A stretch of 64,000 nucleotides of DNA from Diphasiastrum complanatum (taxonomy: Eukaryota > Streptophyta > Lycopodiopsida > Lycopodiales > Lycopodiaceae). The position numbers and the translations under genes are program-made. Of the stretch, positions 12,340 to 62,450 are shown piece by piece (the stretch's first letter is position 1; every line of letters begins with the position of its first letter). The notes under the pieces were generated by a model. That model had not been told where the DNA came from. It worked only from the letters and a program-made list of their open reading frames with translations, and searched no databases. The stretch is taken from contig CM055103.1 in assembly GCA_029204225.1 (NCBI GenBank), forward strand, positions 43,906,604 to 43,970,603, read 5' to 3'.

Positions 12340-14629
12340 ATGGCCTCCATTGAGGATTGTATCAACAGAGTGTTTGCTCAAAGGAGTGCAGATTTTCGAA
12401 AAAACTTGGTGAACAAGTTGAAGGAATAGGGAATAGAATATGAGGTTGACTTAAATGTTTTCACTGTTGAGACTCTGAGGGAGGATGCACACATATCCGC
12501 ATTTGTTGCCAGGAAACTGGACGATGAGGAGTTGCTGAAGAAATTGGGTTTAGAGACGATATGGGAACTCTTGAGCGTAGAGCACGGTTCTCAGAACCTT
12601 GGGGGAACCGTGGGTTCTATGTGTGAAACTTTGCCACATGTGCTAAAGTGAATGGCAACCGACTTTGCATTTTTAGAAAAGGTGGACTGCCCAAGCAAGT
12701 CCCTTGTTGACCTCATGGGTGAGAGGTACCATCCTGATACATTGAAGGCTACCCATGTTGTGTTGCCGATAGAGGGAAAGGGTGAGTGGCAAGAGTTTCA
12801 CGAAGGTGCGCATTTTCATTCATTGCTGCTAGGCCCTTGGGAAGACAAAAAGAAAGTTGTCAAGCCGGCCTCCCAACTTCTAATGTACTCGGTAATTGAC
12901 GTTTTGTTTAGATAGTACTAGCTTTAAAGGCCTTGTCATAAAACAAGCTTGGGAGGCTTTTGAATTGATTAAATGCAGTAGTTTCTCATTTTCAAAAGCC
13001 TATTATGAAAGAAGCTTAGTCTCTTATACATCCAACCTTTTCTAAATCTAGGCATGGGTGCAGGTTGTAGAGGGATGCCGCTACTCAGTCCTTATCTCAA
13101 ACCGCCACATGGTTTGTAGTCGTCGCTCACCGGATGCTGCTTGCAAGAGTGTAAACTACAGTGACACCTTCAATATCAACATGAAAAACCCAGAAGCTCG
13201 AAAGGTTTTATTGTACATGCTAGCAATTGCTAATGAGGCGATTGCACTTGACCCACATTCTTGGATAGACACGCCTCCCGCTCGAAAGTGGGTCATCAAT
13301 GCCCGTCGGCCATTGAATATGATATCGGACCAGATGTAGGTGGGGGTGGTAGCGACATTGGTAGTAGTAGCCACCATGGTAGGTACATTTTTATTCAAAG
13401 TAAATACTCTCTCTCTCTCTCTCAAGAACATTTCTAGTATATGTTTGTGTACTTATATGGGATGCTCAATACAGGACTGAGAGCAGCAATGCATCCCACT
13501 CAAGTGGCGACCATAGTAGAAGATTACGACCCTCGAGTAGAGGTAGCAGTGACAACACAACCACGGGGAAGAGGAAGCACTCAACTTTTGGATTGACATC
13601 GACTCTCTTGGATTGGAGCTTGCCTGATTGTCCCTTTGGATCTTTGGACCTTGGAGATGTGGTCTCTCGCTCAGAGAACCACTTGGTATGGCAACTTACC
13701 ATTTGTTTTGGATGGTTAGACTTGATAAAATGTCTCATATTTAACTTGAATGGAGAAAATTGCATGGAGGAATTGGGACGACTTTGAGCTTTCCATCATT
13801 GCCATTCCTTTGCCATGTAATTGATTATTTGCAACTGACTTGTTTCTCATTAATGTTGTAGAATGGCATCTAACACTTTGTTTGGATTCTTGCAGGTGAG
13901 AATGGGAAGATGGGAAGAGCAAACTGCAATCTACAAGATTTGGGATGTGTCCAAATGGCCAGAGGGATACACTGAGTTGTGGCGCGAGTTGCAAGTGTAC
14001 CAACATCTTGCAGCGTTGCAGGTACAAGTTTTGGCATTCTAAGATGCTTATTTTTCATGCAATGTATTCTATCCAAGGAAAGCATAACTTCATGAAGATT
14101 GTGACTGGCAGTGCCAAGAGGTTGTTAGGACTCTAGGTGCAGGTAAACTCTTTGGGGGGATGATGATATTTCTTGCCATGGAAAATGCTGGTTTGCCTCT
14201 ATATTCTTATAGTCCAGACATATTGCCACTAGCTTTAAAGGCAATAAGAAAGGTCCATAGCATGGGCATATTACACCAGGACCTTTCTGTGCGACAACTT
14301 GTGTGCCAAGGTCAGAGAGTTGCACTCTTGGATTTCAGTACGGCAGTATTCTCCCGCAAGGCAGGAAATTTGATGGCCCGGGAGTATCGGCTTCTTGAGA
14401 AGGAGCTCCTTAGCTTGGTATATTCTTTAAGAGAAGTCATTAAGCTCCCCACTTTGCAATGCATGATGCAAATTTAAAAAGCAAGAATCATGGTTGTGTA
14501 GTTCTAAATATAATAGGCTGTGTGATACCTAGAAATCCATTTTTGAGCTAACATGCAATTAGCAATACGCTCTAAGTTGTGCATCTTGTGCAGGGGATGC
14601 CCCCCCAGACGTCGCTTGCTTTACACTGA
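12340..14629 (+). pseudogene. Multi-exon protein-kinase-like gene (FunK1/Crinkler-like pattern) with stops
   Basis: Proposed exons are 12340-12891, 13052-13339, 13482-13685, 13896-14021, 14112-14417 and 14594-14629, with GT-AG borders and compatible phases. Exon 1 starts MASIEDCINRVF and has TAG at 12427 and TGA at 12649; exon 2 ends with TAG just before its donor. All three fit C-to-T change of CAG or CGA. Kinase features are VRMGRWEEQTAIYKIW (beta-3 Lys), ELWRELQVYQHLAALQ (helix C), HSMGILHQDLSVRQLV (catalytic HxD loop) and VALLDFSTAVF (DFS for DFG). The arrangement recalls kinases abundant in fungi and oomycetes and occasionally seen in plants; that subfamily call is tentative. The exon 3 acceptor is uncertain. 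The protein would end GMPPQTSLALH. Confidence 0.65.
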
Positions 14630-23838: not shown

Positions 23839-24586
23839 CTACTTTTGGCTGAAGCTTCATCAAAGTCTGATGAAGATTGTTGAAGCCTAACGCGTATGTA
23901 TGGAAATAAATTGATGAATGATCTTTATATATGTAGAGATCCTCTTCCACTTATATCTGTGAGTCATGTATTCTAGGCAAGCATGCAACAAGCAGATTCT
24001 TTAAGAATCAAGCTCACAGAGCTTCCGCCCATCTCCTACTATTTCTAGCGGCCATTTGCACCTACTTTTTGCACCCATTTGCTGCTATTTTTTTTGCGCC
24101 TATCTACTGCTATTTCCAGAGCCCTATTCCCTCCTCATTTTAGCCATTTTGCTGTCCCAAAACCCCGACCTTTTTGCTTCTTTTCCAGCACCCTCTTACC
24201 TCTTCACTTTTGCCCATTTGCTGTCCAAAGTTTAGCCCATTTCCAGCACCCATCTACATCTTCTATTGGTGCCTTTTTCTGGTCATTTTTTTCCAGCCAT
24301 TACCTCTTCTACGTTGGTTAGAGTTTTCAGCATGGCGGGTCTTCTCTTCAGCCATCACTATCGTGCATTACTCACACATTCGGAGGTATTTTCTCAGCAT
24401 TGTTTTTCTCTAGCTTCATTTTTTGCTAGTTCTACACATTCCCAGCCTTTTTCAGCCCTTAATTAGCTGTCCTATTCCATCTTTCCTGGCTGCTTTTGTG
24501 CCATTTCGGTGTACTTTGGAATATAGAATAAGTTGGGGTGACGACGAACGTCCTTTCCCTCAGGTTTTGTCTTTTCCTTATCACCT

Positions 24587-25560
24587 ATGGCAACTTCTTC
24601 AGCGAACGATCCACCACAAAGCTCTTTAGACGATTGTTTTATGCACATTGATGCTCGCATGGATCGTCTGGAGAGTCGTATCGATCGTGTCCTTTCTAGC
24701 CTCGAGACCGTTTTGCCTCAAGGGGATACCACACTGCCAGAGACCCTTCATCGTCCTGGCAAAGCCCCTTTATTCCCCATACTGAGTCCGACTACTACCT
24801 CTCGCTCTTCATCTTCAGAAAGTGCTTTTGGAAGTACGTTTGGTCAGCCTTCATATGGTGGTAGTCTTTTTGGCTCTCCTTATGGGTCTCCTGCACCACC
24901 ACCTGGATTTCCCTCAATACCACCAGGTTTTCCTCCCCTACTTTTCCTAGAAGTCATGAGTCACGTTTTACTCATGATTTTCGTGATCGCATCCAGCTTA
25001 GTACTTAGTCTGGTTCGTCTGATGGGAATATTTTGGAGAACTGGTTCTCTAGATTAGAGACCTATTTTCTTATGTATCCCAAGATTGAAACCCAGAAGGT
25101 CCAGTTGGCTGCATTATATCTAGATGGTCGGAGCTCAGACTTGGTGGCGTGTTTACCGTTCTGAACCTGCTCGCGAGGGGTTGCATATATGGCCTACCTT
25201 GTGTCATGACCTTCGTATGTGACTATGATTGACCCCCAGTGGCTAGTTTGCCAATGTGATCTGTTTCGCAACCTTATCCATACTGGTGAGTTGACTGCTT
25301 ATATTGACCAGTTTATTGAGCTTTCTTAGCTTTTTGGTGATCTCCACCCTACTGAGCTTATTTCACGCTTTATTGTTGGTCGTAAAGGTTCTTTACGATA
25401 TGATGTGTCATCCTTCCGGCCTCCTACTCTCTCTGATGCTATTTCCTTGGTCACTACCTCGCAACATAAGTACCCTAAATTATCCACTTCTGCTCGTTTT
25501 TCCCCCCCTCGCTTAGGGATGCCTAATATTTCAACTGCTTCTCTGCCCTAGCTTCTACTA
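24587..25560 (+). pseudogene. Gypsy gag, frameshifted
   Basis: It starts MATSSANDPPQSSLDDCFMH with a short coiled segment (RMDRLESRIDRVLSSLETV) and a Gly/Pro/Ser-rich stretch (GSPYGSPAPPPGFPSIPPGF). The conserved gag core then appears in pieces: ENWFSRLETYF and PKIETQKVQLAALYLDG. An adjacent frame gives WWRVYRSEPAREGLHIWPTL, so at least two indels are present. Confidence 0.75.
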
Positions 25561-25629
25561 CTACCACTCCTGCTCGCCCTTCTGCACCCCACATCACCTT
25601 TGTTCGCTGTCACTATTCAACCGCAGAGT

Positions 25630-26270
25630 TCGTTGAGATTCAATAGAAGCGTCTGTGTTATTGCTGAAAGAGCCCGGACCACATGGCCCGTGACTGTCGT
25701 TAGACTCCTGGCCCTACTACAACTGTTTTTTATCATGAGGCCATTACTCCTAATGATTCTGACATTTACATCCAGATTCTTGAGACTCCTGACCCACCTC
25801 CTGTTGATGTGTTGGCTGACCAGCTTCTTGCTGATCCTGCTCCTACCGCTTGCCATGCGTAGCTTGCTTATGCTACTTGGGCTGGGCATCTGGTTCTTGC
25901 TCTATTCGGTTACGTGTCCGCATCTTGGGGCGAGAGTATATTGCTTTGGTATATATAGGCAGTACACATTCATTTATTAGCAGTAACATTTCCACCAGGA
26001 TTCGTGCTACACCTATTCTTGCTTCCCAGCCTCTCAGTGTTGAGGTTGCTAGCTCCCATTCTTTTCTCAGTTCTCAGATGTTTCAGGGCTTGGATTATCG
26101 CATTGGTGACTTTTCTGGTCAGGCAGATTCTACATCATTCCTCTAGAGCTCTATGACATTATTTTTGGTGCAGACTGGTTCACTTCACTTGGTATTGTTG
26201 ATGTGGATCTCTCTCAGTAGACACTTTACTTTACTTGCTGGTATTGATTCCCAGGGTGACTACTAGTTGC
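25630..26270 (+). pseudogene. Gypsy zinc knuckle and aspartic protease, damaged
   Basis: A knuckle-like CYC-stop-KSPDHMARDC lies at about 25652-25702, with irregular Cys spacing and an internal TGA. The protease block reads LVYIGSTHSFISS, where the family has a D-S/T-G; the catalytic Asp is replaced. IIFGADWFTSLG follows near 26160, typical of the end of Gypsy protease. Confidence 0.7.
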
Positions 26271-26360
26271 TTATCGGGAGCAGTTTATGCGTAGCCTGCC
26301 AAAGGCTCAGGGTGGATCCTCTTCCTCAGGTGATTTCTCACTTATTGCATAGGTATTCTG

Positions 26361-27326
26361 TTGTCTTTTCAAAACCTATGTCTCTTCCACCATTATGTGA
26401 TGTCAACCACCATATTGATCTTATTCCTGGTGCCACTGCACCTTCTTGTGCACCATATCCTATGTCTAAAGTCGAAACGTGATGAGGTTCAGCTCCAGAT
26501 TGCTTCTCTTTTACGTCAAGGCCTCGTTGTACCTAGCCATAGTCCCTTTGGTGCCCCTGTTCTTCTTGTTGCTAAAAAAGATAGAACCGAACGCCTCTGC
26601 ATTGACTACCGTGCCTTGAACAAGCTTACTATCTGTAATCAGTATCCTATTCCTCATATGGATGACGTTTTTGATCAGCTTGGCACTTCATCTATCTTTT
26701 CCGAGATTGACCTTCGTTCTGGATACTACCAAATCAGGATGCATCCTTATGATGAGCATAAGACTGCGTTTCGTACTCACTTAGGTTTTTATGAGTTTCG
26801 TGTTCTTCCTTTTGGTGTTCAGAATGGTCCACCCACGTTTCAGAATGCTATGAATAATGTTTTACGTCCTCTTCTTGGTGTTTGTGTTTTAGTTTATTTT
26901 GATGACATTCTTGTTCTTAGTACTTATTTGTCTGACCACTTATTTGTCTGACCATACGTCGCATCTCTCGTTTGTGTTTGAGTTGTTAAGCATCATTTGA
27001 TCGCTAAATTGTCAAAATGTTCCTTTGCTGTTGCTGAGATTGAGTTTTTGGGTTTCCTTGTTTGTGACAGTCGTATTCGTCTTGATCCTTGGAAAGTTCA
27101 GGCTATTGAGGATTGGCCTTTTCCAACCGGCGTTCATTCTGTTCGTATGTTTTTAGGTATGGCTACCCATCTTCGTCGTCCTCTTAAGTATTTCACCACC
27201 GTGGCTGCCCCACTTCATTCTTTGTTGAAAAAGTCTTATACATTCGCTTGGACTCTTGAGTGTCAGACTGCTTTTGATGCTTTACGTCATGCCATCGTTT
27301 CTATTGCCACTATGTGTTTGCCATAG
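26361..27326 (+). pseudogene. Gypsy reverse transcriptase, near-complete but split
   Basis: The RT core is readable: QGLVVPSHSPFGAPVLLVAK, RLCIDYRALNKLT, IFSEIDLRSGYYQI, FRVLPFGVQNGPPTFQ and the catalytic VYFDDILVLS. A break near 26950 separates it from SKCSFAVAEIEFLGFLV, with VRMFLGMATHLRR in the same later frame. Substitutions in usually invariant positions (Y for F, GVQNGP for GLTNAP) indicate age. Confidence 0.85.
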
Positions 27327-27690
27327 GTTTATGGTTGAGACTGATGCTAGTTTTGTTGGTATAGGCGCTCTTCTTCGTCAGTCTGAGTGTGTCATTGCTT
27401 ACAAGTCTCATCGTTTGCGCTCTTATGAGCACGTTACTATGTTCATGAGAAAGACCTACTTGCTATTATCCATGCTCTTAAGAAGTGGCGCCATTACTTG
27501 TATCATGTTCCTTTGGATATTATTATTGATCATCAGTCTCTTCGTTATCTCTTTTCTGAACGTGATCTTAGTGATCGTCAGTATTGTTGGTTACAGTTTT
27601 TACAATCTTTCTATTTTGACATTTTGTATCGTCCAGGAAAGTCGAACACGACAGCTAATGCTTTATCTTGTCTTCCTGCTTAGTTACATA
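27327..27690 (+). pseudogene. Gypsy RNase H, frameshifted
   Basis: VETDASFVGIGALLRQ, then in another frame DIIIDHQSLRYLFSERDLSD and RPGKSNTTANALS, the Gypsy-type RNase H (TDASxxGxGAVL, TDHxSLxYL, GKxNxxADALS). At least two frame changes. Confidence 0.8.
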
Positions 27691-27740
27691 GTCTTGTTGC
27701 TTCTATTCCTTCTTGGTTTGACGATTTATCGACTGCATAT

Positions 27741-28942
27741 TTGTTTTGTCCTAACTTTTGTGATGTTTATCGTTCTCGTCCAATGCCTTCATCTCGGAAG
27801 TTCCAGGTTTATACTGTTGTTGATGATCGTTTATATCATTATTGTGCTTTATGTATTCCTAGTTGTCTATCCATTCATTCTCAGTTGTTGTCTGATGCTC
27901 ATGCTTCTCCTATTGGTGGCCATTTTGGGTTTTAGAAGTCTTATGCACATCTTAAGGACCATTTCTACTGGCCATCCATGAAGTCTGAGCTAGCACATCT
28001 TATCCATGACTGTACCTTTTGTGACCGTAATAAAAATTCCCGTGCAAAGTCTGCTGGCCCATTCCTCATTGCTAATGGACAAACATTTCTATGGACTTTA
28101 TCCTTGGCCTTCCTCATACCCGACGTGGTAATGACTCATGTATGGTGGTTGGTAGATCGGTTCTCGAAACAAGCACATTTTATACTAGTCCATAGTACTA
28201 TTACAGTTGAGCAGTGTGCATGCCTTTTTATATTAGAGATTTTTTGGCTGCATGGTTTTCCACTTACTATCCTTTCTGATCGGGATAGTAATTTTACATC
28301 TACCTTTTGGTACTGATGGGCAGACTGAGGTCCTTAATCGAATCCTTGAGGATTATCTTCGGCATTTTGTTTCTCCTTTAGGGAAGGATTGGGATCAGCA
28401 TTTATGTTTGGCAGAGTATAGCTATAATGGATCTGCTAGTACCAACACTGGACCATATTGACTCATGGGTATGCTCCTCTTTTGCCAGGGGTGCCTCTTC
28501 CCCCCGATGATACACCAGTCACCATTGCTTCTTTCTTATCAGGTGCTCGGGAGCCTATTGCTAGGGCTACTACTCATTTATAGCATGTCCAACAGCGCTA
28601 TCAGACTTCTGTTGATCGTCACCGTCGTTATGTTGAGTTTCAGGTTGGTGATATGGTTTATCTCCGGCTACGTTTTGCATGACATCATTTTGTTCAGGGC
28701 CATGCTTGTACTGAGAAGCTTGCACCACATTATTATGGGCATTATCGTATTATGGAGTGCCTCAGTCCTGTTGCATATCATTTACAGTTGTCTGCTTCTA
28801 CATGTGCCTATGATACCTTTCATGTTAGCCTGTTACGTGCTGCCATTAAGGATGATGCTCCTCGCGATCTCACATTTCCTACAGGGCATAAGCTGTTCCC
28901 TTTCTTACCAGCTACCATTCACCAAGTTCACCTTCAACATAG

Positions 28943-28947
<5 letters not shown>
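27741..28947 (+). pseudogene. Gypsy integrase and C-terminal region, broken
   Basis: The zinc-binding part reads SDAHASPIGGHFGF, then (after a TAG) HLKDHFYWPSMKSELAHLIH and CTFCDRNK. The catalytic core follows in fragments: LVDRFSKQAHFILVH, LHGFPLTILSDRDSNFTSTFW, TDGQTEVLNRILEDYLRHFV and AEYSYNGSASTNTGPY. The tail resembles GPY/F-type sequence, KLAPHYYGHYRIMECL, then YDTFHVSLLRAA. It ends where (GA)n starts at 28948. Confidence 0.82.

Positions 28948-29023
<76 letters not shown>
28948..29023. repeat. (GA)n microsatellite, ~76 bp
   Basis: An uninterrupted GA run between the truncated Gypsy element and the 3' end of LINE a. On the LINE sense strand it is (CT)n. Confidence 0.97.
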
Positions 29024-29027
<4 letters not shown>

Positions 29028-30414
29028 AAGAAGATTTCATTAATGTCTTTTCCATGCCCTGAGGCATATATGACAAAAGGAAGTACATGTCAGATGAATT
29101 TCACCAGGACGGACCAAGTTTGTCATTCTAATACTAAAACTAAAACTACTAATTGAAAGCCTATGAGGAGATAAAATAGATCAGGAAATTTATGGTATTA
29201 CGACCATTAACAGATCAACTGAACCTTCCTCATTTCTCTAGCTCTATTTCTACCTCTACTCTCACTATTCCCTTTTTGATTTCCACGAAGTGCATTGTCC
29301 CGTCTTTGTAGATGAGACGTTTGCCCATGTCTTTCGCTCGTTGACGAGCTTTCTTATGTTCTTCCACCTGTACGTAGGTTAGGTCTTCATCCAGGAAAAT
29401 CTGAGTACCCTTTAACGTGGCTCGCTGACGGAGTGCCTCTCGTCTATGTGTTGCTGTTGAGCAGCGGATTACTAGGGTTTCCGTATACTTTTTGGTACGC
29501 CAGGCCTTATCCACAAGTCGGTATCATGATGGTGGAGCGTGTCCGTTAAAAATTTCTTAGCTTCTTTGATAGCGTCTTGCGTGTCCGGACGTCCACGTAC
29601 AAGGACATTTAGGGCTTTTTGTTCCCGTAATCAATTTTCATTGAAAGTAGCTGATATGAGTGAAACGAGGGCTATGTTACCTTTGAGAACATCGGCCCAT
29701 GTTTTCGTGTACTGTTGGGGCTGATCCTGGGTGTCTTCGTCTTCGACATCCTGGATGGATGCAATAGTGGCAGTTTGGATGTCGATTTCCTTTCGAATAC
29801 CTGCCAAAAACTTGTCTATGCTATGGATATGGGGTATCTAGATGGAGTCACGGTATTGAATAATGTTGGTAATTTGCTGCTCCTGTGAAACGATTTTAGC
29901 TTGTAGTTTCGCAATGTGGCCCTCCAGTTGAGCCACTGTTCTTAGAAGAAATTGTATTTCTTGGAAAAAGGTCAAGCCGTTTGCCGTTTTCCCATCTTGG
30001 AATCTCTGGAACAGGTGTCTGGGTTGTTAGAGGTGCGTAAGCATTAGGTTGGGGAGTGAGGGAAAAGGGATCTGTAGACGTAGGACTGACAGGATCTAGT
30101 GCAAATACGGTAGCAGGTGGTGTAGCAGAAGGGAAAACAGCAGGTGTAGCAGAAACAGTATGGTCAGATATGGAGGCAGCAACAGGGCGCGGATCTAGGA
30201 TGGTAGCATGACACGGATCGATGGCAACAGGGCGCGGTTTAGGACCAGGGCGCACTAGAGGATGGGGGGAGCTACCCCCCCCCCCGCTTGCGTGGAGCCA
30301 GCGCGGTACCCAGTGATCCGCTCAGTGATCAAGTGGGAACAGCGCGATGGGATCAGGTGGGAGCAGTAGGCGGATCAGGCAGGATCAACAGTAGCACCCG
30401 CCCAACGCGCCATC

Positions 30415-30416
<2 letters not shown>
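29024..30416 (-). mobile_element. LINE unit a: ORF1 only, no ORF2
   Basis: A minus-strand L1-like unit bounded by (GA)n on both sides. From its 5' side it holds a Pro/Thr/Ala-rich N-terminus (RPVAIDPCHATILDPRPVAA), a coiled-coil stretch near 29900, KTWADVLKGN, an RNA-binding-type block (LNVLVRGR) and a C-terminal domain (29514-29230) with TQIFLDEDLTYVQVEEHKKA and GKRLIYKDGTMHFV. Stops and a frame change interrupt the middle. The 3' UTR follows straight after the ORF1 stop, with no endonuclease or RT sequence. Unit d has the same layout, so this is a half-LINE family rather than a chance deletion. Confidence 0.8.
29054..29067 (-). other. LINE a 3' hairpin
   Basis: ATGCC-CTGA-GGCAT, a perfect 5-bp stem with 4-base loop about 30 bases from the (GA)n tract. 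The same position is a hairpin in four other copies. Confidence 0.7.

Positions 30417-30480
<64 letters not shown>
30417..30480. repeat. (GA)n microsatellite, 64 bp
   Basis: It separates the 5' end of LINE a from the 3' end of LINE b. Confidence 0.97.
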
Positions 30481-30483
<3 letters not shown>

Positions 30484-30515
30484 AGAATTAGAATTATTAT
30501 TATTAACGTCTTTTG

Positions 30516-30529
30516 GTGCCCAGGGGCAC
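30516..30529 (-). other. LINE b 3' hairpin
   Basis: GTGCC-CAGG-GGCAC stem-loop about 35 bases from (GA)n; it has a G-C pair where LINEs a and d have A-T. Confidence 0.7.
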
Positions 30530-30717
30530 ATAAGACAAAAGAGAGTACAAAATGTGAGAAGCATTGTCCGCATAAGGACTTATTTACCAATGAAAAGACA
30601 GTAAAACTAAAACTAAAATATCGATCTCTCTGTCTCTAAGAGAAAAAGTATCCAAGCTTGACCACCAGCTGGTGAGGGTACAAAGCAAGAGCTTAACCAC
30701 CTGCTCCGCGGAGGAAA

Positions 30718-32455
30718 CTAGCTACGAGCAAGCTGAAAGTAATGAGTGATGGTAGTAGTGGGTCGTGATGTAGGCTGGTGGGAGGCGTATGAAGATCTAG
30801 TAGCACTGGATCGAGCCGAAACTCTCTGTGTCTTCGATCTTCGGACGGGGACGTCAAAATCCGCAACCGAAATATCCACTCTGTCTCGCTTCTGGAAGAA
30901 CTGAGTAATGTGAGCCTGACTGGAATCCATATCTGAGAGCGTAGGTAGAAGTGAAGCTCGTAAAATATACATCTCTCTCAAAAGAAGACCCACACATCTA
31001 GCATCTGGATACTCGAGGAAGGAGCTCAACGTGAGGGGAATATCTCGGTATAAACAATGGTATCGTCCTCTAATCTCATAGTATACTGGGCAGCGAAAGA
31101 TGAAATGAAACTCATCTTCCACCTCCTGAAGAGAACAAAGCTGACATATCCGCTGCAATCTGGGAGTGTCTGTGTATCTACCTGTCTCGATAGCAAGCTG
31201 ATGAGAAGAGACTCGAAGCTGTCCTATACGATATCTCAGACCAAAAGATAGCGTCTGTGTAAGATAAACTGGAAGAATAGGCAAGCCCGAAACGTCCAGC
31301 CGTAAAAGATGTGTGCCATAATAATGTAGCTTGACCCTATCTGGATCAGGATGTGACCATATAGTGCGTATGTAGCTCCGGTAAATCTGCTGTCTGATAT
31401 AAGCATGGGTTCCATTCGGAAGATCAAGTGCGGATAAACCCCAAGTCTGAAGAAGGGCTGAGACACTGCGATACCAAGAGTGCTTGGCTCCCTGATCTGC
31501 AAGGGTACAAGATGAAGTGAGAGCAGCAACAATGTATCTTGAGGTATCTAGATCTGATACCCTGTGAAGAAAGGTGATGATCTGAAACATAGCACCAACA
31601 ACTAATGGAGGAGAAGCAAACTCGGTTAGTATGATATCATGTGGTACTGAGGGCTTAGCCCGAATTATCCTACTGAGCATGAGAATCTGGATACGAGTAA
31701 GATCTCTCCATGTATCGCGTGATAAATCAGGGCACCAAGTCTCAGCCGAATATAGCACAACTGGGGAGACAGTAGCAGAAAATAGTAGGCATCTGGTAGC
31801 AGGATCCTGCACAAAATAAGTAGAGCAAAATCTCTCCATATGCACAAGAGCGGTATGCCCCTTGCGGAGCCTGGCGGTGGCTGCTGGTCGAAAAGTGAGT
31901 AGCGGACCAGAGAAAAGAACTCCCAAATAGGTGTAGGAGGTCACGATCTCAATCGGTAGCCCGTCATAATAGAAAATCACATCTCTCATATGCTGTCTGT
32001 CGGTGTTAAACACCATAATCTTAGTCTTCTTAAGGTTAACCGTCAATCCCCAACGCTGGCAAAAGTGATGTAAAGCAGAAAGGTGACTCTGTAAACCAGC
32101 TGCAGAGGATGAGAGGAGAACCACATCATCGCGTACAAGAGAATGGGGATAATAATGTCTGCTAGGGGACAGCCCTCTCCACCTTCCTCGCGAATAATCC
32201 GCTCGAGGTCATCTATATATAGTGCAAAAAGAGTGGGTGATAAGGGGCAACCCTGCTTCACCCCAATGGTAGAATGTATCTGTGAGGACCAGCCACTACC
32301 ATCTCTGAAACGTGCCAAGACTCGCTCATATAAAGTAATGATCGCAGCAATAGTATCCTCTGAAAAGCCAAGTGAAGACAGTCTCTGGAAAAGAAGATGT
32401 CGTGGAACAGAGTCAAAAGCTTTGCGAAAATCCACAAAGCAACAGTAAATTCTCT
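30718..32455 (-). pseudogene. LINE b ORF2: RT palm to C-terminal zinc finger, one frameshift
   Basis: Reading from the 5' side: FVDFRKAFDSVPRHLL, STIGVKQGCPLSPTLFALYI (RT motifs), then the catalytic YADD box, where a one-base loss shifts YADDVVLLSSS to YAMMWF at about 32125. The next frame runs 468 codons from LLSSSAAGLQSHLSALHHFC through MVFNTDRQ, YTYLGVLFSGP, thumb-like sequence and a CCHC finger CQLCSLQEVEDEFHFIFRCP, ending HYFQLARS. This C-terminal finger is usual in plant L1-like ORF2. The frameshift in the active site makes it non-functional. Confidence 0.9.
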
Positions 32456-32468
32456 GTTTCCTCGATGT

Positions 32469-32469
<1 letters not shown>

Positions 32470-32545
<76 letters not shown>
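32470..32545. repeat. (GA)n microsatellite, 76 bp
   Basis: It separates the 5' end of LINE b from the 3' end of LINE c. Confidence 0.97.
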
Positions 32546-32549
<4 letters not shown>

Positions 32550-32563
32550 ATTAATGTCCTTGA

Positions 32564-32577
32564 ATACCCTAAGGTAC
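32564..32577 (-). other. LINE c 3' hairpin
   Basis: ATACC-CTAA-GGTAC on the plus strand; on the sense RNA this is a 5-bp stem with one G-U pair. An inner pair is A-U where the other copies have G-C. Confidence 0.6.
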
Positions 32578-32704
32578 ATAGGACTAAGAAAAGGTACATG
32601 TCAAGTGTGCACATAGGAGCTTAAAGCTCAATCATTTATAAAACAATAACTGCAAATACAATGCATAAAGACAGCTGGCCTAGTCAGGATCCAATAGCCT
32701 GGAA

Positions 32705-35390
32705 TCATATATCATGATGCCCATCAGCATGGAAGAAATGGTGGATGGTATGCTGTGAAGGTGTCATTAGATGTGCCCTGGACCTCTGTCGTCGGATAGG
32801 CTGTCGGTGTCGTCTCTGCTGTCGTGGCGCTCTGGGCTGTGGTCTAATAGCTGGCTGTCTCTCTGGCCATCGACATGGTCTCTGATGCCGATGTACGAAG
32901 GAATCGGGAATCTCGGCCTCTCCATTTGAATCGTTGTTTATGGGTACCTCGGATCTCTGTCTCTGACGGGATATGCACTCATCAATGCTCAGCTGTGTCA
33001 GGGAATGTGTATCATCTAGTCTCCTCCTCCTCCTCAGGTCTGACATCTCTCGGATCATCAGTGCGACACATCTAGGGTCCTCATAAGATATCAAGGTAGA
33101 AAGTGTAACTAGGTGTTCTCTGAACAAGCAGTAGTACCGCCCCCAAATCTCATAGTAGGCTGGACATCTGAAGAGGAAATGTGACTCGTCCTCAATCTCA
33201 TGCATAACACACATGCTACAAAGCCGGCCCTCTCGTGGGGTGCCACTGTATCTGCCGATACATAGCTGAGGGCACAACCATAGTGTCAAAGAGCCGACAC
33301 TTACTAGTCGCATCTCTGATGTGTGAGCTGAAACATAGTCTCTCCAAATCTACCAGTGAGGCATAGCCCTTCCGTACCCGGGAAATAGCTCTGTGTCTCA
33401 TGCTGAACGTAGGCCCCGAGAATAGTACTCCTAGATATGTATAGGAATCAACAACCTCTAGTGGATGACCATCCCATAGAAGCTCCTTCCGCATCATGAA
33501 AGACCTAGAGGTGTTGAACACCATAACCTTAGTCTTGGCCACATTCACCAACAAACCCCACCGTGTGCAGAAAGAAAGAAGAGCATCTAAGTGTCGCTGC
33601 AAACCCTCTCTCGTCCGTGAAAGCAAAACCACATCATCAGCATAAAGGAGAATAGCAATAATGAGGTCGCCCAATGTACAACCCTCCCCTCCATCACTCC
33701 GTATAGCATGCTCTAGCTCGTCAATGTAAATACCAAAAAGTGTAGGAGAGAGTGGACATCCCTGTTTGACCCCAATAGTACTGACCACCTTCGGTGAAAT
33801 AACTCCTGATAGTCGGACCCTGCCAATAACTCGCCTATACAATGCTACTACCGCCTGTATAGTATCATCCTGAAAGCCCCGATCACGAAGTCTCTGTATC
33901 AATAGATGCCTAGGCACAGAATCAAAGGCCTTGCGGAAATCCACAAAGCAGCAGTATACACGCTCCCTCTTGGCCTTAGCCTCCTCAATGATGGACCTCA
34001 TAAGTAAAGATATGATCCGATGTAGTATATCCCGGTCTGAAACCCGCCTGTCCAATGGCATGGAGTGATCTGGCATCCATCTCTGTACTGATCTCTGACT
34101 GTGGGATAGAACCATATACTTTGGCGAAGAGGTGACTAATCATAATGGTGCGGTAGTTGTCAGCTTTCAGGGGGTCCCCGCCTTTATGGATAGGGTGAAT
34201 GAGGTTTGTGGACCATGGAGAGGGAAAATCAGAGGTGACAGCTCGGTTGAATAGGATGGAGAGAAAGGGTGAGAGGATGTCGGGAGCATACTTTAGAAGT
34301 TCAGCCTCTAGCTCATCAATGTCTTTGGCTTTATGGGAATGGAGTCGTGTGATGGCCTTCTCTATAAGTTTGTTAGTGAATATGGCAGAAGTATCCGTGA
34401 GACAAGAGGTGGGAAGAGGAGGGGTATCTGGGATGGTGTACAATGATGTGGCATATGCGACCCAAGTGCTGAGGTCTGTGATCCGTGGTGGGGGTGACCG
34501 TGGAAGGAACCTCTTCCAGAATGAACCTGAGGAAGAACTAAAGAGGAGATCCATCAGTTTCTTACCCTGACCAATCTCGTATGCGATTTTCTTTTTTTTT
34601 GTGGTTCTACGGTAGACACGAGATATGGTTTTGGTCATATGAGGAAGATGGGAGCGAGCACATATGAGGTTCTGATGTAGCTGGATGCATTCCTGATCAT
34701 ACCAGGGGTTATAGGGTCTATGATGTTGCTGGTCTTTGGGCCGTGGGGATGGAAAGGCAATGGAAGCTGCAGTATGAATGGTTTGGACAAGAAAGAGGGA
34801 CTGCTCCTCTAAAGTATACTCACGTGGGAAATAGGTAAGGAGATCGGAGAGGGCTTCTCTGTACAGTGGTGTGTGATGTGAAGTGTAGCGGTAGGTGGGT
34901 TTAACTGTAGGGGTCGAAGAGAAAATAGGTGTGATGGGGAGATGATTGACAGAGAGTGAGAGATATGAATGATCAGAAAGAGTGGTACAGAGAAGGATGA
35001 AATGAAGTGAAGGAGAAACGGTGAACCCATTCTGGAGGGAAATAACAAATAGCCAAGAATATGTCACGATCTAACTCCATCAACCTGTGGTCCAACCTGA
35101 TCCAGATATAGCGAGCCTACACGTCAGTGTATAGTAGCTCGACCCATGGCTAGAGAGAGTCTCGAAATAAGCAAGCAACACCACCTGAACCGCGACTAGT
35201 CAGTGCCCTCGTCTTCCCTCTGCAAGTAGAAAGCCAGCAAAATCCCTCAATGCAAGGAAGTCCTCTCTCAGGACTCTCATGTGTCTCAGTAAGTATAAGG
35301 ATATCCCCTGTAGTACAAAAATCTCTAAAGTCTCCTGCTGTAGCTGAAGAATGGATACCATTGCAGTTCCATAAACTCAACCGCAATGCT
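32705..35390 (-). pseudogene. LINE c ORF2: endonuclease remnant, RT, C-terminal finger
   Basis: It starts near 35386 with LSLWNCNGIHSS and DILILTETHESP (APE-type endonuclease N-terminus). After stops it reads RDIFLAICYFPPEW, then the endonuclease middle is lost and it resumes at TTLSDHSYLSLSV. A long linker leads to RT: DELEAELLKYAP, FVDFRKAFDSVPRHLLIQRL, STIGVKQGCPLSPTLFGIYI and an intact LLYADDVVLLS. Frame changes lie near 34080 and 33250. About 170 residues of the thumb present in LINE b are missing at the second point, where SAMYRQI meets RYSGTPREGRLCSMC. The finger CSMCVMHEIEDESHFLFRCP follows. Not functional as it stands. Confidence 0.88.
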
Positions 35391-35437
35391 TTTGTGAGGG
35401 CCCCCGAATCGCTCCTAAGTCCGGGGGGCCCAAATCC

Positions 35438-36586
35438 CTATGCCTCAGATTTTTGGGGGTCAATGTTTCGGGCCTTACTATCCCGATAGATCACCCTTTT
35501 TCCCAATGCTTTGGCTTCGCTAAAAACCTTCCTCCTTTCGGCAACTTGCATAGGTGTGAGATCATCGTCCATGAAGACAAGGGTACCTCTCAGCCTAGCT
35601 CGTAGCCTAAGGACAGCTTGCCGCTCCTCTATTCCCGTGAACCGTATGATGAGTGTAGTTGGATCTCTTTTAGTTCTCCACGCTCTTTCCATTCCGTTGT
35701 GATGGTGGGAAAGTGTATCCGTGAGGAAACTGGTTGCTTCGGTAATTGGAGCCTTAGTATCTTCAATTCCTCGCACCCGCACATTCAGAGATTTATACTT
35801 CCGCATTTCTTCTTCGGATATGGTGGCTGAGATGACGCTATTGAAAGTGTGGGTACCTTCTTTACCGTCTTCTTTGAATAGAGAGGCCCATGTTTTGGTT
35901 TCCGCCTTATGTTGCTCAAACCGTTCCTCCAATTCTTGGATCTTTGTGGTGCTGGCTGGTTCTTCTTTTCTGCTCAAGGTCTCTTCCAAAGATATGATCC
36001 GGGCCATCATAGTTTGCTTCTCGATTGCCATAGCTTGTATTGTGGTTTTCATTTGACCCATTTCAATCCTTAGGTAGCTAGATTCCAGTGTAATCTGCTC
36101 CATGCAAGAGAGAAGGTATTGTTCAAATGCTTTCGTAGGAGAGTAGACTTCTTTAGGGAATGAGAGAGGATAATGGGAGGGGGCAGGAGAACCATGGAGA
36201 AAGGAGAGGGCCAAGGAAGAGGGGGGAGGGCTGAGTGCCTGCTGGGCAGCCAGCGTTGCCTCAGCAGGCAGAAAAGAGGGAATGGAAGCCAATGACGGGG
36301 TGGGAAGGGCCAGTGAAGGGGTGGGAGGGGTAGGATTAGTCTGAGCAGGCAGCGAGGGGGTGGGAGAGGTAGAAGGCAGCGAGGGGGTGAGTGAAGGCAG
36401 CGAGGGGGTGGGAGAGGTAGAAGGCAGCGAGGGGGTGAGTGAAGGCAGCGAGGAAGCAACAAACGAGGGAGTAGGCAGTGAGGGGGTGGGAAGGGCCAGC
36501 GAGGGGGTGGAATCAGGCAGCGAAGGAGAGGGAGAGGGCAGCGAAGGGGAGGGAGGGGAGCGAGGGCTCCCCTTTTTCTTGGCCAT
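35438..36586 (-). CDS. LINE c ORF1: nucleic-acid-binding chaperone-like protein
   Basis: An open frame from ATG 36586 (MAKKKGSPRSP) to 35438, 382 codons. The first ~170 residues are Pro/Ser/Thr/Leu-rich with repeats of SLPSTSPTPSLP, at DNA level a run of near-identical units. Residues ~175-260 form a coiled coil (IISLEETLSRKEEPASTTK, IQELEERFEQHKAETK). KTWASLFKEDGKEG follows, then an RRM-like block (YKSLNVRVRGIEDTK) and a C-terminal domain (LVFMDDDLTPMQVAERRKVF, GKRVIYRDSKARN). This order is that of L1-type ORF1, which binds the element RNA. A longer reading would extend into (CT)n as Ser-Leu repeats; the first ATG after the repeat is the better start. Confidence 0.85.
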   Translation of the reverse strand: MAKKKGSPRSPPSPSLPSPSPSLPDSTPSLALPTPSLPTPSFVASSLPSLTPSLPSTSPTPSLPSLTPSLPSTSPTPSLPAQTNPTPPTPSLALPTPSLASIPSFLPAEATLAAQQALSPPPSSLALSFLHGSPAPSHYPLSFPKEVYSPTKAFEQYLLSCMEQITLESSYLRIEMGQMKTTIQAMAIEKQTMMARIISLEETLSRKEEPASTTKIQELEERFEQHKAETKTWASLFKEDGKEGTHTFNSVISATISEEEMRKYKSLNVRVRGIEDTKAPITEATSFLTDTLSHHHNGMERAWRTKRDPTTLIIRFTGIEERQAVLRLRARLRGTLVFMDDDLTPMQVAERRKVFSEAKALGKRVIYRDSKARNIDPQKSEA

Positions 36587-36601
36587 GGAGAGGGTGGAGG
36601 C

Positions 36602-36604
<3 letters not shown>

Positions 36605-36663
<59 letters not shown>

Positions 36664-36684
36664 AGAAGAAGAAGAAGAAGAAGA
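36605..36684. repeat. (GA)n followed by (GAA)n microsatellite
   Basis: (GA)n from 36605 to 36660 passes into AGA/GAA trinucleotides to about 36684. It lies between the 5' end of LINE c and the 3' end of LINE d. Confidence 0.95.
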
Positions 36685-37615
36685 AAAAGATTTTCATTAA
36701 CGTCTTTTCCATGCCCTAAGGCATATAAGACAAAGGGAGTACATGTCAAATGAATTTCACTAGGACTGATCAAGTCCGTCATTCTCATACTAAAAAAAAC
36801 TAAAACTATTGATTAAAAACCTATGAGGAGATAAAACCCTCCTCATTTCTCTAACTCTACTTCTACCTCTACTCTCTCTATTCCCTTTTTGATTTCCACA
36901 AAGTGCATTGTCCCGTCTTTGTAGATGAGAGATTTGCCCATGTCTTTCGCTCGTTGACGAACTTTCTTCCGTTCTTCCACCTGTATGTAGGTTAGGTCTT
37001 CATCCAAGAAAATCTGAGTACCCTTTAATGTGGCTCGCTGACAGAGTGCCTCTCGCCTATGTGTTGCTGATGAGAAGCGGATTACTAGGGTTTCCGCATC
37101 CTTTTTGGTATGCCAGGCCTTGTCCAAGCCGATATCATGATGGTGGAGTGTGTCTGTTAAAAATTTCTGAGCTTCGTTGATAGCGTCTTGCGTGTCCGGA
37201 AGTCCTCGTACATGAACATTTAGGGCTTTTGTTCCCGTAATCGAGTTTCGTTGAAAGTAGCTGATATGAGTGAAATGGGAGCTATGTTACCTTTGAGAAC
37301 ATCGGCCCATGTTTTCATGTGCTGTTGGGGCTGATCCTGGGTGTCCTCTTTGACAGCCTGGATGGATGCAATGGTGGCAATTTGGATGTCGATTTCCTTT
37401 CGAATATTTGCCAAAACTTGTCTATGCTCCGGATATGGGGTACCTCGGAGGAGTCACGGTATCGAATAATGTTGGTGATCTGTTGCTCATGTGTAACTAT
37501 TTTCGCTTGTAGTTTCGCAATGTGTTCCTCAAGTCGAGCCACTGTTCTTAGAAGAAATTGTATTTCTTGGAAAAATGTCAAGCCGTTTTCCCATCATGGA
37601 GTCCCTGGAACGGGT

Positions 37616-37619
<4 letters not shown>
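36685..37619 (-). mobile_element. LINE unit d: second ORF1-only copy, 5'-truncated
   Basis: It matches LINE a from the coiled-coil stretch onward: LLRTVARLEEHIAKLQAKIV, KTWADVLKGNIAPIS, then (37127-36843) TQIFLDEDLTYIQVEERKKV and GKSLIYKDGTMHFV, ending VEVEVELEK. The 3' UTR follows at once and contains no ORF2. Its 5' end, at GGGTGCACA, abuts (GA)n. A frameshift near 37230 breaks the ORF. Differences from LINE a along its length indicate an independent insertion, not a recent tandem copy. Confidence 0.82.
36711..36724 (-). other. LINE d 3' hairpin
   Basis: ATGCC-CTAA-GGCAT, the same stem as in LINE a with a different loop base. Confidence 0.7.

Positions 37620-37688
<69 letters not shown>
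37620..37688. repeat. (GA)n microsatellite, 69 bp
   Basis: It abuts the 5' end of LINE d. The sequence to its right (37689-37940) shows no recognised feature. Confidence 0.97.
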
Positions 37689-37690
<2 letters not shown>

Positions 37691-37944
37691 ATAAACAAAT
37701 GAAGTAGAGTGAAGAGAACAACCTCTTCTCATATGTATATTACAAAAAATTTCAAATCCTCAAGAATGTAAACACCCCACTTCATATTTGTGTCATGATT
37801 CACAACTACAATATAGTTCTCACTTTTGCTCTCTCACAGTTTTAGAGTAAATATCACTCACATTCCTCAAAGTTGGATACACTTGTCATCAATGTACAAT
37901 CCAAAAGTGTCTGCGAGAGGAAACAACCCTACTTCACCCCTATG

Positions 37945-38400
37945 GTGCTCCTGGAGGCTCCACCAAGTCCCACGTGTCATGCTTGGCAAGAATCAATCTC
38001 TTCTTGCATGGCTTTGATCCAAATTTCCTGATCCTTAGCTTTTTCAAAAGTTGAAGTTTCTTTGCTTTGGATTCTACTTGAAAAAAGAGCATAATTTGCT
38101 TCATACCTATCTGGTTGCGACTTCTCTCTTGTCGATGGAATGGGTGTACCTCTTTGGGGCTTGAAGGGTCCTGTATACCCATCTACAATCAATGGGCTTT
38201 TTATCCCCTGGAGGCTCCACCAAGTCCCACGTGTCATGCTTGGCAATTGAATCAATCTCTTCTTGCATGGCTTTGATCCAAATGTCCTGATCCTTAGCTT
38301 TTTCAAAAGTTGAAGTTTCTTTGCTTTGGATTCTACTTAAAAAAAAGCATAATTTGCTTCATACCTATCTGGTTGCGACTTCTCTCTTGTCGATCTTCAC
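37945..38400 (-). pseudogene. Copia pol linker fragment in two tandem copies
   Basis: Two copies, about 37949-38138 and 38205-38395, encode on the minus strand SQPDRYEANYALFSSRIQSK, AKDQEIWIKAMQEEIDS and KHDTWDLVEPPG, the segment just before the RT domain in Copia pol. They differ by small indels (AAGAATC versus AATTGAATC). Between them lies VDGYTGPFKPQRGTPIPST. A ~256-bp tandem duplication of a retroelement fragment; the rest of the element is missing. Confidence 0.8.
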
Positions 38401-38571
38401 AGCTCTCCCTGGATAGTAGATGATTCAGGAAAGTCAGCAATATCGTGGCTCTCCATCAATCTTTCATACCATTTTATGAGACCAGCGATGGAGATGCTGC
38501 GCTGGAGCGCTCATCAGAGCAGGCAGGCAGATTGGGGCTCCCACAAGGGCTCAGAAAGAACCGCCATGGCA

Positions 38572-38573
<2 letters not shown>

Positions 38574-38635
<62 letters not shown>
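38574..38635. repeat. (GA)n microsatellite, 62 bp, no LINE attached
   Basis: A long GA tract without recognisable LINE sequence on either side; a possible empty target of the kind occupied at 29-37 kb. Confidence 0.95.
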
Positions 38636-42520: not shown

Positions 42521-42909
42521 GCTTCCTTAGGTATATACATATGTTGTTTTTTTCGTTATTGTTTTGGAGACATTTCATACTCCCACTGATACCACACACT
42601 TGACATATACATTTACTAGTCTTATAAGTGCTTTCGCATGGAATTTTTGAAGGGTAAAAAGAAATGAAGTTTGGAAGGTTTTTCAAACATAATCTTGGAT
42701 AAGAGAGTACTCCAATTGGATGTCCATGACACATTGTATATTGATGGCAAAGCTCTTACCAAGTTTATGCAAAAGTCTCATTGTAATGATGCAAACATCG
42801 TGAACATACCATATCGTTGGGAGAGTAATAGTCTTTTAGTAAAAACATATGGGATTCACCCTAAAACGTATGTTTAAATAAAATATCTTTAAGTGGGAAA
42901 AAACAATTG

Positions 42910-45947: not shown

Positions 45948-45988
<41 letters not shown>

Positions 45989-46225
45989 AAGTTTTATTCC
46001 TCCGCGTAGCTGGTGGTTAAGCTACTGCCTTTTTACCCTCACCATAGCTGGAGGTTAAGCTTTCATTTTATTTCTAGTTTATTTCTGTGTTATTCTATGT
46101 TTTAGCTGATAGAAATAAGTCCAACATGGACAATGCTCCTTTCTGATGTACTTTTTCTTTGTCTCATGTGCCCAAGGGCACTCTGTAGACATTAATACAT
46201 TCTATTCTATTCTATTCTCATGGAT
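45948..46225 (+). mobile_element. LINE fragment f: 3' UTR only, (CT)n at its 5' end, (ATTCT)n tail
   Basis: (CT)n from 45948 to 45985 is followed at once by sequence matching the 3' UTR of LINE b: TTCCTCCGCG, GCTGGTGGTTAAGCT, TACCCTCACCA, GGAGGTTAAGCTT, AAGTCCAACATGGACAATGC and CTCATGTGCCC. It ends GACATTAATACATTCTATTC with a short ATTCT repeat. It has no ORF. It is either a severely 5'-truncated LINE or a SINE that shares the LINE tail; no RNA polymerase III boxes were recognised. Confidence 0.75.
46168..46181 (+). other. LINE f 3' hairpin
   Basis: GTGCC-CAAG-GGCAC, the same stem as in LINE b with other loop bases. Confidence 0.7.

Positions 46226-57698: not shown

Positions 57699-57703
<5 letters not shown>

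Positions 57704-57757
<54 letters not shown>
57704..57757. repeat. (CT)n microsatellite, 54 bp
   Basis: It lies immediately upstream of LINE e, with CT on the LINE sense strand. Confidence 0.97.
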
Positions 57758-61098: not shown

Positions 61099-61110
61099 TC
61101 TCTCTCTCTC
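61099..61110. repeat. Short (TC)6 at the LINE e 3' junction
   Basis: Twelve bases of TC where LINE e ends and Gypsy-related sequence begins. Confidence 0.8.
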
Positions 61111-61745
61111 TCTTTAGCCTCTTATCCAAAAATCACCCAATTCCATAATCGTTTGCTATTCCAAATTGCCAAAATCCTACAGCCTGTTCATCACTGCCCC
61201 AGCCCTTCCGACTTGTCACTTTCGCCTATTATTTTATCCGTTTCCAGCCATCTTTCACAGTTTATCAAAAGGCTCTCCAGCGCTCATCCTCAACCACATT
61301 TCACAGAATTCCGACTCCGTTTGATATTCCAATTTGACATTTCCATCCTGGCTGTCCAGCGCATTTTTACAGCCTTCATTCACTTTTTCCATTTGTTGAT
61401 TGATGCTACTTGTGTTCTTGAGCACCATGCTATAGATGTTGTCGCCTATGCTCCTTATTTCGATATTATTCATGGGTCTACGGTTTCAAATGCCTTGGCT
61501 ACTCCAGTAGATCTCCATATGGCATACAACTAGTTCTCTTCACTTGGTACTGTTGCTGTGGATCTCTCTCAACAGACACTTTCCTTTACTCATGCTGGTC
61601 AACATCATTCACTTGCTGGTATTGATTCCCAGGATGACTATCAGTTGGTTTTTGAGAAGCAGATTATGCGTAGCCTGCCAAAGGCTCAAATGCAGCTCTT
61701 CTTTCCATTTAGAGTACATCAGTTGCTGCTTCACTTTCACCATCC

Positions 61746-62450
61746 GTGGGTCCTCTTCCTCAGGTTGATGCTGCTCCGGATTTACAGGTTGTTGTTGTGT
61801 GCCTTGTGCCTATATGCCTTGATTCACAGATATTGTATTCAGTGGTCATTCCTGGTTTCATTGATATTCAGGCCGTATACCTTGTTGGTATTTCTACTAT
61901 TGCTTTTGCGCATACCTCAAATAGCCCTCCTGGTTCGATGGTTGGTGCAGTATCTTCTCCATTGGTCTCTATATCTCCATCTCTTGAGTCCGTTATGGCC
62001 GATGTTCCTGCTGATTTCTATGGGGTTCTTCACAGGTCCATGTTTGATGGTTCCCTCGCTATTGGTGATCAGGTTGTATCTTCTTTCGCTTTACTCCATG
62101 GATCTCCGCTTGAGGTTTGTGAACCGCCTCATGATATTTCTACAGTTCCTTACATGATTCATGCGCCTTTGGCCCTTACCGTTACACATTTTCCATCCGA
62201 GGATATGCGCCAGATGGTCACTATTACTTATTTAGGGTATTTATATGCTGGGATCTTTCTAGATGAGTATACGGGCATCCTTCAGACTCCTTGTGTTTCT
62301 ACATATAGGTTTGTTGCAGTCCATGCCGATGCTATGGATATATGGCATTCCTGGTTATTACGTATAGCTTGGTTTCCATTTGGACATGTTGATTGGTGCT
62401 GGTTTTTCCATATTACTGATCGCCTATGGTGCGGATATCCATCTCTATGA
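61746..62450 (+). CDS. 234-aa ORF in the Gypsy derivative, no known domain
   Basis: An open frame with Val/Ser/Ile-rich sequence (LQVVVVCLVPICLDSQILYS, AVSSPLVSISPSLESVMADV) and late repeats of the W-containing pattern HSWLLRIAWFPFG. No zinc knuckle, protease, RT or integrase motif. It occupies the place of gag-pol and overlaps the next ORF in another frame. I do not recognise a function, and it may be an incidental frame in a low-stop sequence. Confidence 0.4.
   Translation: MGPLPQVDAAPDLQVVVVCLVPICLDSQILYSVVIPGFIDIQAVYLVGISTIAFAHTSNSPPGSMVGAVSSPLVSISPSLESVMADVPADFYGVLHRSMFDGSLAIGDQVVSSFALLHGSPLEVCEPPHDISTVPYMIHAPLALTVTHFPSEDMRQMVTITYLGYLYAGIFLDEYTGILQTPCVSTYRFVAVHADAMDIWHSWLLRIAWFPFGHVDWCWFFHITDRLWCGYPSL

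Follow-up and report, generated by a model that had tools for sequence, protein, structure and literature searches.

Related LINE families of Diphasiastrum complanatum probably insert preferentially, and in one orientation, into (CT)n tracts

Introduction

Why does every long interspersed nuclear element (LINE) found in a 64-kb stretch of the Diphasiastrum complanatum genome (contig CM055103.1; the whole stretch analysed, hereafter the window) stand beside a long GA/CT microsatellite, and is this repeat the target of the elements or a part of them? The reading favoured here is that the elements belong to related families which probably prefer (CT)n, along with other stretches of pyrimidines, as insertion sites and keep to a single orientation. 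The initial annotation of the window had suggested a microsatellite-targeted family; this was borne out in part, the CT preference belonging to a group of families and not to one. What was observed (position, strand bias, a 3′ hairpin, pyrimidine tails that differ from family to family, and copies often chained head to tail) is described below, followed by the mechanism that might connect these features.

LINEs and CT tracts in the window

Eight GA/CT tracts of 36–76 bp each are present in the window. The only other runs of at least six units are (CT)8 at 13407–13422, remote from every LINE found in the window, and (CT)7 at 61100–61113; runs of (CA)6+, (TG)6+ or (TA)6+ do not occur in the 64 kb. 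Tracts and units are listed below, with repeat units in LINE sense; ORF, open reading frame; RT, reverse transcriptase; EN, endonuclease; UTR, untranslated region. Contigs and loci elsewhere are given by C and L numbers.

28948..29023, minus strand: tract T1, (CT)38; lies between a truncated Gypsy and the LINE a 3′ tail, joining the two
29024..30416, minus strand: LINE a; ORF1 without ORF2; tail (CTT)n
30417..30480, minus strand: tract T2, (CT)32
30481..32469, minus strand: LINE b; 5′-truncated inside RT; tail (AATTCT)n; absent from C303
32470..32545, minus strand: tract T3, (CT)38
32546..36604, minus strand: LINE c; complete 5′ end; ORF1, partial EN, RT
36605..36660, minus strand: tract T4, (CT)28; follows the LINE d tail, (CTT)n
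36661..37619, minus strand: LINE d; ORF1 without ORF2; 5′-truncated relative to a (85% identical)
37620..37688, minus strand: tract T5, (CT)34
37689..38573, minus strand: unit x; duplicated Copia-like pol fragment (by eye) and LINE RT scrap; CT tract on each side
38574..38635, minus strand: tract T6, (CT)30
45948..45985, plus strand: tract T7, (CT)18-19; 5′ of LINE e
45985..46218, plus strand: LINE e; 3′ UTR only; tail (ATTCT)n
57700..57757, plus strand: tract T8, (CT)26-29; 5′ of LINE f
57758..~61095, plus strand: LINE f; ORF1 and RT present, no EN; cut short ahead of (CT)7 and a Gypsy-like piece

The five (GA)n tracts of the initial annotation (28948, 30417, 32470, 36605 and 37620) are perfect, and a sixth, at 38574–38635, had not been listed there; the four minus-strand LINEs placed between the five were located as a, b, c and d, and the two plus-strand copies (45.9 and 57.7 kb), said to have (CT)n flush with their 5′ ends, as e and f. 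All six LINEs have a tract flush with their 5′ end, and its sense strand is CT each time (6/6), as had been claimed; the runs of (CT)n ahead of e and f span 45949-45984 and 57705-57756, respectively. On its 3′ side LINE e ends in the ATTCT tail, then ATGG, with no CT tract.

Self-comparison of the window placed a and d in one family (85%); b, c, e and f are distinct families, 66–70% alike where alignable, or alike over short stretches only. The cluster is therefore made of separate insertions. Tandem duplication was ruled out as its origin, since the units other than a and d are only 66–70% alike or align in short stretches.

Genome census of LINE 3′ ends

The 3′ ends of families c, a and e were sought in the 1.745-Gb assembly (5176 contigs); the b family lay outside the census. 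First-look candidates numbered 2248 for the c RT stretch, 1399 for the c 3′ end, 552 for the a 3′ end and 1415 for e. Only the best 40 candidates per query were scored, and 30 of 40 rows were examined for c, 20 of 40 for a and 20 of 40 for e.

At least eight sense CT units follow the 3′ end in 55 of these 70 copies (c, 23/30; a, 17/20; e, 15/20), and three to seven units in 11 more of the 70 (c, 6; a, 2; e, 3); fewer than three were seen in one copy of c, one of a and two of e. Orientation relative to the repeat is fixed: against the 55 copies with at least eight sense CT units, none of the 70 has (GA)3+ starting within 75 bp of the 3′ end. Random sites in the window, cluster included, have sense (CT)n of at least eight units within 75 bp in 163 of 20000 cases (0.8%), roughly a hundredfold below the census rate, and chance is therefore excluded. 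The c rows include the window itself and C303, without which the count is 53/68. With one row per flank, at least eight units are found in 41/56 (c, 16/25; a, 15/18; e, 10/13), rows L015 and L019 being mis-anchored in this tally; among the c copies L025/28 and L029/30 have a common flank, and L014/L015 are one locus. A lack of CT beside most copies had been named beforehand as the outcome that would count against microsatellite targeting; the repeat flanks most of the copies examined, and it does so on the 3′ side.

The tails are family-specific, (TCTT)n in c, (CTT)n in a and (ATTCT)n in e, and each stands before a common (CT)n; poly(A) tails like those of plant L1 were not found. As the tails differ and the (CT)n is common, the CT points to the target. 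A different account, which we consider unlikely, makes the 3′ (CT)n mainly element-borne, either donor CT copied by read-through or an expanded tail, with a short pyrimidine match sufficing as target. The tails are themselves pyrimidine microsatellites, which agrees with this account, but a tail peculiar to each family does not lead one to expect a CT tract common to all. Nor does it sit well with compound (CT)(CA) flanks: LINE tails enter compound (CT)n(CA)n tracts at L079 and L080 (one site twice) and at L092, and a LINE-free compound (CT)n(CA)n tract was found at L121.

5′ junctions and chaining

Junctions were judged by eye at twenty 6.4-kb c loci and at L170 and L171, which reduce to 17 independent junctions; L044 (the locus of the window on C303) was left uncounted, and L172 did not extend to the 5′ end. 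CT is flush (within 5 bp) with the 5′ end in 6/17: L045/51, L050, L054/57, L056, L058/59 (only (CT)7) and L062. L063 (1/17) is presumed flush, its homology to c beginning about 200 bp past the tract, and the 5′ side of L052 is CT-rich but degenerate. CT flush with the 5′ end, noted earlier for the window and found there in 6/6 copies, was thus seen in only 6–7 of the 17 independent genomic junctions.

The independent copy L050 begins at c position 3, 2 bp past a CT tract, so the 5′ end of c appears real, as the initial annotation had supposed. That annotation had also considered the tract as the element's own end. On the 5′ side this was ruled out by b, d and e, which are truncated at different points and yet flush; on the 3′ side an element contribution is possible. 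The flush CT of 5′-truncated ends (b, d and e; L054, L056 and L062) is left unexplained if the repeat is element-borne.

Of 30 c copies, 17 are followed within 1.4 kb of the 3′ end by a sense-strand match to LINE protein; the nearest match is antisense in one, and 12 have none. The following sense LINE begins within 10 bp of the tract in L014 and L024, and elsewhere mostly beyond a 5′ leader or other sequence. The order LINE 3′ end, CT, LINE was seen in L056, L063 and L050.

CT tracts without LINEs

Matches to (CT)20 number 1,298,753 forward and 1,286,120 reverse in the genome, overlapping matches counted. The pattern V(CT)16C, which gives one match per tract start of that form, was found 46,018 times, and the reversed pattern C(TC)16V 77,000 times. 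The excess of the latter indicates that CT tracts tend to follow T, which would be natural if LINE tails precede many of them.

No LINE was found at 20 of 24 CT stretches on contig C1, a wider LINE library from 16 loci included, although families outside the libraries could be missed; tracts therefore exist independently of LINEs. Four of the 24 came from (CT)20 matches and 20 from V(CT)16C, a pattern biased against a preceding tail that ends in T. BLAST placed LINE sequence next to L114, L118 (beyond (CA)19) and L122; at L124 it was recognised by eye.

Sites without the insertion

The clearest comparison is offered by C303, where a and c are separated by (GA)61, against (GA)32, LINE b and (GA)38 in the window; the flanks are 99.0–99.3% identical to those of the window over 7.28 kb. 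On the simple reading, LINE b was inserted into an uninterrupted tract. C303 also bears on whether contigs were wrongly joined at CT tracts, an assembly artefact that we regard as extremely unlikely. Joins within (CT)n would be orientation-consistent by construction, and the assembly is in 5176 contigs; but the order a/CT/c/CT/d/CT/x, without b, recurs on this second contig at 99% identity, and the association of CT with 3′ ends extends across three families and many contigs.

At L119 the 5′ flank of the filled loci L045/L051 (94.9% over 98 bp to L045) is followed by (CT)32 and no LINE, and the 3′ flanks differ. L124 matches the same L045/L051 flank at 90.8% over 76. The 3′ flank of L077 has an 85% paralog, L108, with (CT)54 and no LINE. 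Long CT without a LINE, as at C303 and L119, is not accounted for by element-borne CT.

L045 and L051 have a common LINE and 5′ flank repeat, 216 and 133 CT units, respectively, and different 3′ flanks, an apparent exchange within CT. L051 was useless as an empty-site test, its 3′ flank being the start of a Gypsy long terminal repeat (LTR). At L049/L061 a LINE–LINE junction lies at TATTCAA (by eye), which a 3′ UTR and an internal site have in common; template switching or joining by microhomology would give such a pattern.

Could LINEs have inserted broadly, with later CT–CT recombination shuffling ends until CT-flanked junctions accumulated? The different 3′ flanks behind one 5′ flank in L045 and L051, the L049/L061 junction, and the Gypsy, Copia-like and LINE pieces joined at CT tracts of the window are in its favour. 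It is nevertheless highly improbable: recombination cannot set 3′ tails beside CT in 55/70 copies that are 85–100% alike to the query, and it cannot make the family tail precede CT every time.

Unit x and the Gypsy pieces of the window

Unit x (37689–38573) was rejected as a LINE, being a Copia/LINE-scrap composite; its Copia-like pol fragment is duplicated (97% repeat), and its far end is also found with T6 on C303 (L152). The Gypsy pieces at 24542–28947 and 61113–63921 are each cut at a GA/CT tract (28948 and the (CT)7 at 61100, respectively).

Element anatomy and 3′ hairpin

LINE c has ORF1 at 36592..35438, an RT (RVT_1, E=1.1e-27), endonuclease motifs recognised by eye and, compared with other copies, deletions inside the element near c1574 and c3347. 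An intact ORF2 is present in none of the six window LINEs. For ORF1 no relative was found among solved structures at E<=1; comparison with Rfam gave no match at gathering score, and a tRNA search found none. LINEs a and d consist of ORF1 and 3′ UTR only and are perhaps a non-autonomous half-LINE family (85% identical, ORF1 without ORF2; 552 first-look candidates for the a-type 3′ end). The mammalian HAL1 is a half-LINE of comparable kind.

A hairpin region is conserved at the 3′ ends of five window LINEs:

29034..29110, minus strand: LINE a
30497-30573, minus strand: LINE b
32545-32622, minus strand: LINE c
36691-36766, minus strand: LINE d
46124-46201, plus strand: LINE e

The covariance model was trained on the 3′ ends of a–e and of L002, a related locus described below, so that its five window matches are its own training rows; the next window match (42583-42670, E=0.14) is weak and has neither tail nor CT. 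RNAalifold gave one two-stem hairpin for this alignment, with both-side changes in 4 of 10 pairs; among 500 shuffles, 1 reached as high a both-side pair count and 2 as high a covariation score. After the hairpin come GACRTTAAT (GGAGTTAAT in L002) and then the pyrimidine tail.

Relatives and classification

A search of genome contigs gave five related loci. The nearest outside relatives are L001 and L002 (RT identity 56 and 53%), from a metagenome-assembled genome (MAG) of Trichormus. No relative was confirmed in the search of viral contigs, which gave three weak RT matches in unannotated phage records. L001 and L002 lack a CT run of five units, and the CT habit was not seen in either; L002 has the 3′ hairpin in common with the window LINEs, and a TTTC-rich tail. 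Both are contigs of eukaryotic type, with LINE and Gypsy-like sequence, in the MAG of a bacterium (uncultured Trichormus sp.), and are likely contamination from its host. They are probably DNA of the fern host (Azolla), Trichormus in this MAG being presumably the Azolla associate.

The label 'L1-like' of the initial annotation was left unconfirmed: against solved structures, where R2 and L1 were the only LINE proteins among the matches, the RT scored R2 above L1 (81.9 and 57.2 bits), and that of L001 likewise, again with only these two LINE proteins matched (93.2 and 68.7). An RT tree of eight short sequences had weak support (63 and 50; L001 with L002, 92). The EN part of L001 gave a weak match to Exo_endo_phos, below the Pfam cut-off (E=0.037). 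RNase H is often present in the R1 clade; in ORF2 of L001 or L002 it gave no Pfam match at E<=0.5.

Limits of the CT preference

Several observations weigh against a CT target and are gathered here. The census copies are best-scoring, not random, and include some duplicates. CT is absent from the 5′ side in L046, L047, L053, L055, L170 and L171 (6/17), and L048, L049/61 and L060 (3/17) are LINE–LINE fusions. C303 could also result from deletion of LINE b by CT–CT recombination. L077/L108 was dropped as a clean empty site, the 5′ flanks being mismatched and L170 without 5′ CT. The three paralogs fetched for L064 (two identical) have only (CT)4-5; CT is absent in 4/4 paralogs fetched for L093; and L038 is inserted into a Copia-type LTR whose native (CT)8-10, seen in three empty copies, lies about 17 bp downstream of the insertion. 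At the T1 site the GA tract is absent in 16/16 Gypsy paralogs fetched (of 38 copies listed besides the window and C303), and the remainder of the T1 Gypsy was not found beyond the cluster. Among the hairpin controls, further pair types were not above shuffles (326/500), and a slide by +2 came near (3 pairs; 0.280 vs 0.300).

The T1, L093 and L064 sites are also what element-borne CT would lead one to expect. The initial annotation had proposed looking for an uninterrupted (CT)n at empty sites; this was found at C303, as (GA)61, and at L119, whereas the tract is short at L064 and lacking at T1 and L093. Because the sites differ in this way (C303 and L119 on one side; T1, L093, L064 and L038 on the other), the preference for CT is strong but not strict, and some of the 3′ CT was probably brought by the element or grown.

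Proposed mechanism

Under preferential insertion into CT, targeting would probably act through pairing between the RNA tail and a GA primer. The endonuclease would nick the purine (GA) strand; the nicked GA 3′ end would pair with the element RNA at its UC-rich tail; and reverse transcription would begin at the paired end (target-primed reverse transcription), placing CT on the sense strand of the new copy. The sequence past the tail would then be target CT; part of the 3′ CT may also have come from a read-through tail or from expansion after insertion. New insertions would enter the CT left beside earlier copies and so build LINE-(CT)n-LINE chains. Nicking, pairing and target-primed reverse transcription of this kind would together explain orientation, tail type and chaining.

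In its fullest form the proposal is tentative, and we hold it to be possible rather than probable: that a group of LINEs in a land plant without flowers, belonging to neither Tx1 nor R1, targets nicked (GA)n by pairing of a UC-rich tail, with each insertion keeping or seeding the next target, and so forms self-seeding head-to-tail chains across tens of thousands of CT tracts. In a genome very rich in CT microsatellites, such a group would act as their source as well as their sink. What sets LINE targets is an open question for LINEs generally, and different tails with one target, with first-look candidates in the thousands, would allow the parts of RNA-tail/primer pairing and of the endonuclease in target choice to be tested against each other.

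Comparison with known systems

A limited search of the open-access literature, judged by titles and the opening lines of abstracts, found no plant LINE with microsatellite targeting. Insertion into simple repeats is known for animal LINEs. The R1-clade elements Waldo and Mino have AC-type targets; the clade resembles the present group in its microsatellite or rDNA targets and perhaps in its apurinic-type endonuclease (APE), which is only putative here, and differs in being animal and AC-directed. Zepp and ZeppL LINEs of green algae are nested in a telomeric or centromeric setting: they too pile up side by side, but at telomeres or centromeres and not in CT. Kojima and Fujiwara are said to have described in 2004 the Kibi elements of zebrafish, with a TC-repeat target. 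These site-specific LINEs of the Tx1 clade are alike in being reportedly directed to a TC microsatellite, and they are APE-type, as the present group may be; they are animal elements, unlike those of the host here. KIBIDR elements are named in the part of PMC2684134 available, which does not state their target.

Togen, related to the NeSL clade and with a (TG)n target, is also a microsatellite-specific LINE, and differs by its restriction-like endonuclease group, its fish host and its TG target (PMC4640811, in part). Plant L1-clade elements are the obvious plant counterpart, and in one lineage a 3′ stem-loop is conserved and shows compensatory changes; L1 of flowering plants are almost all poly(A)-ended, in contrast to the pyrimidine tails here, and RTE elements end in (TTG)n or (TTGATG)n (Ohshima 2013, PMC3747384, in the sections available). 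In Bov-B/RTE a 3′ microsatellite-like tail has been suggested to influence the choice of nick; these elements differ in their target, Tn-TA, and a target resembling the tail rarely flanks their copies (excerpts of PMC13295347). According to the same excerpts, target specificity among LINEs with apurinic-type endonuclease is confined to two clades, Tx1 and R1; if the proposal made here is true, a plant lineage would be added to them.

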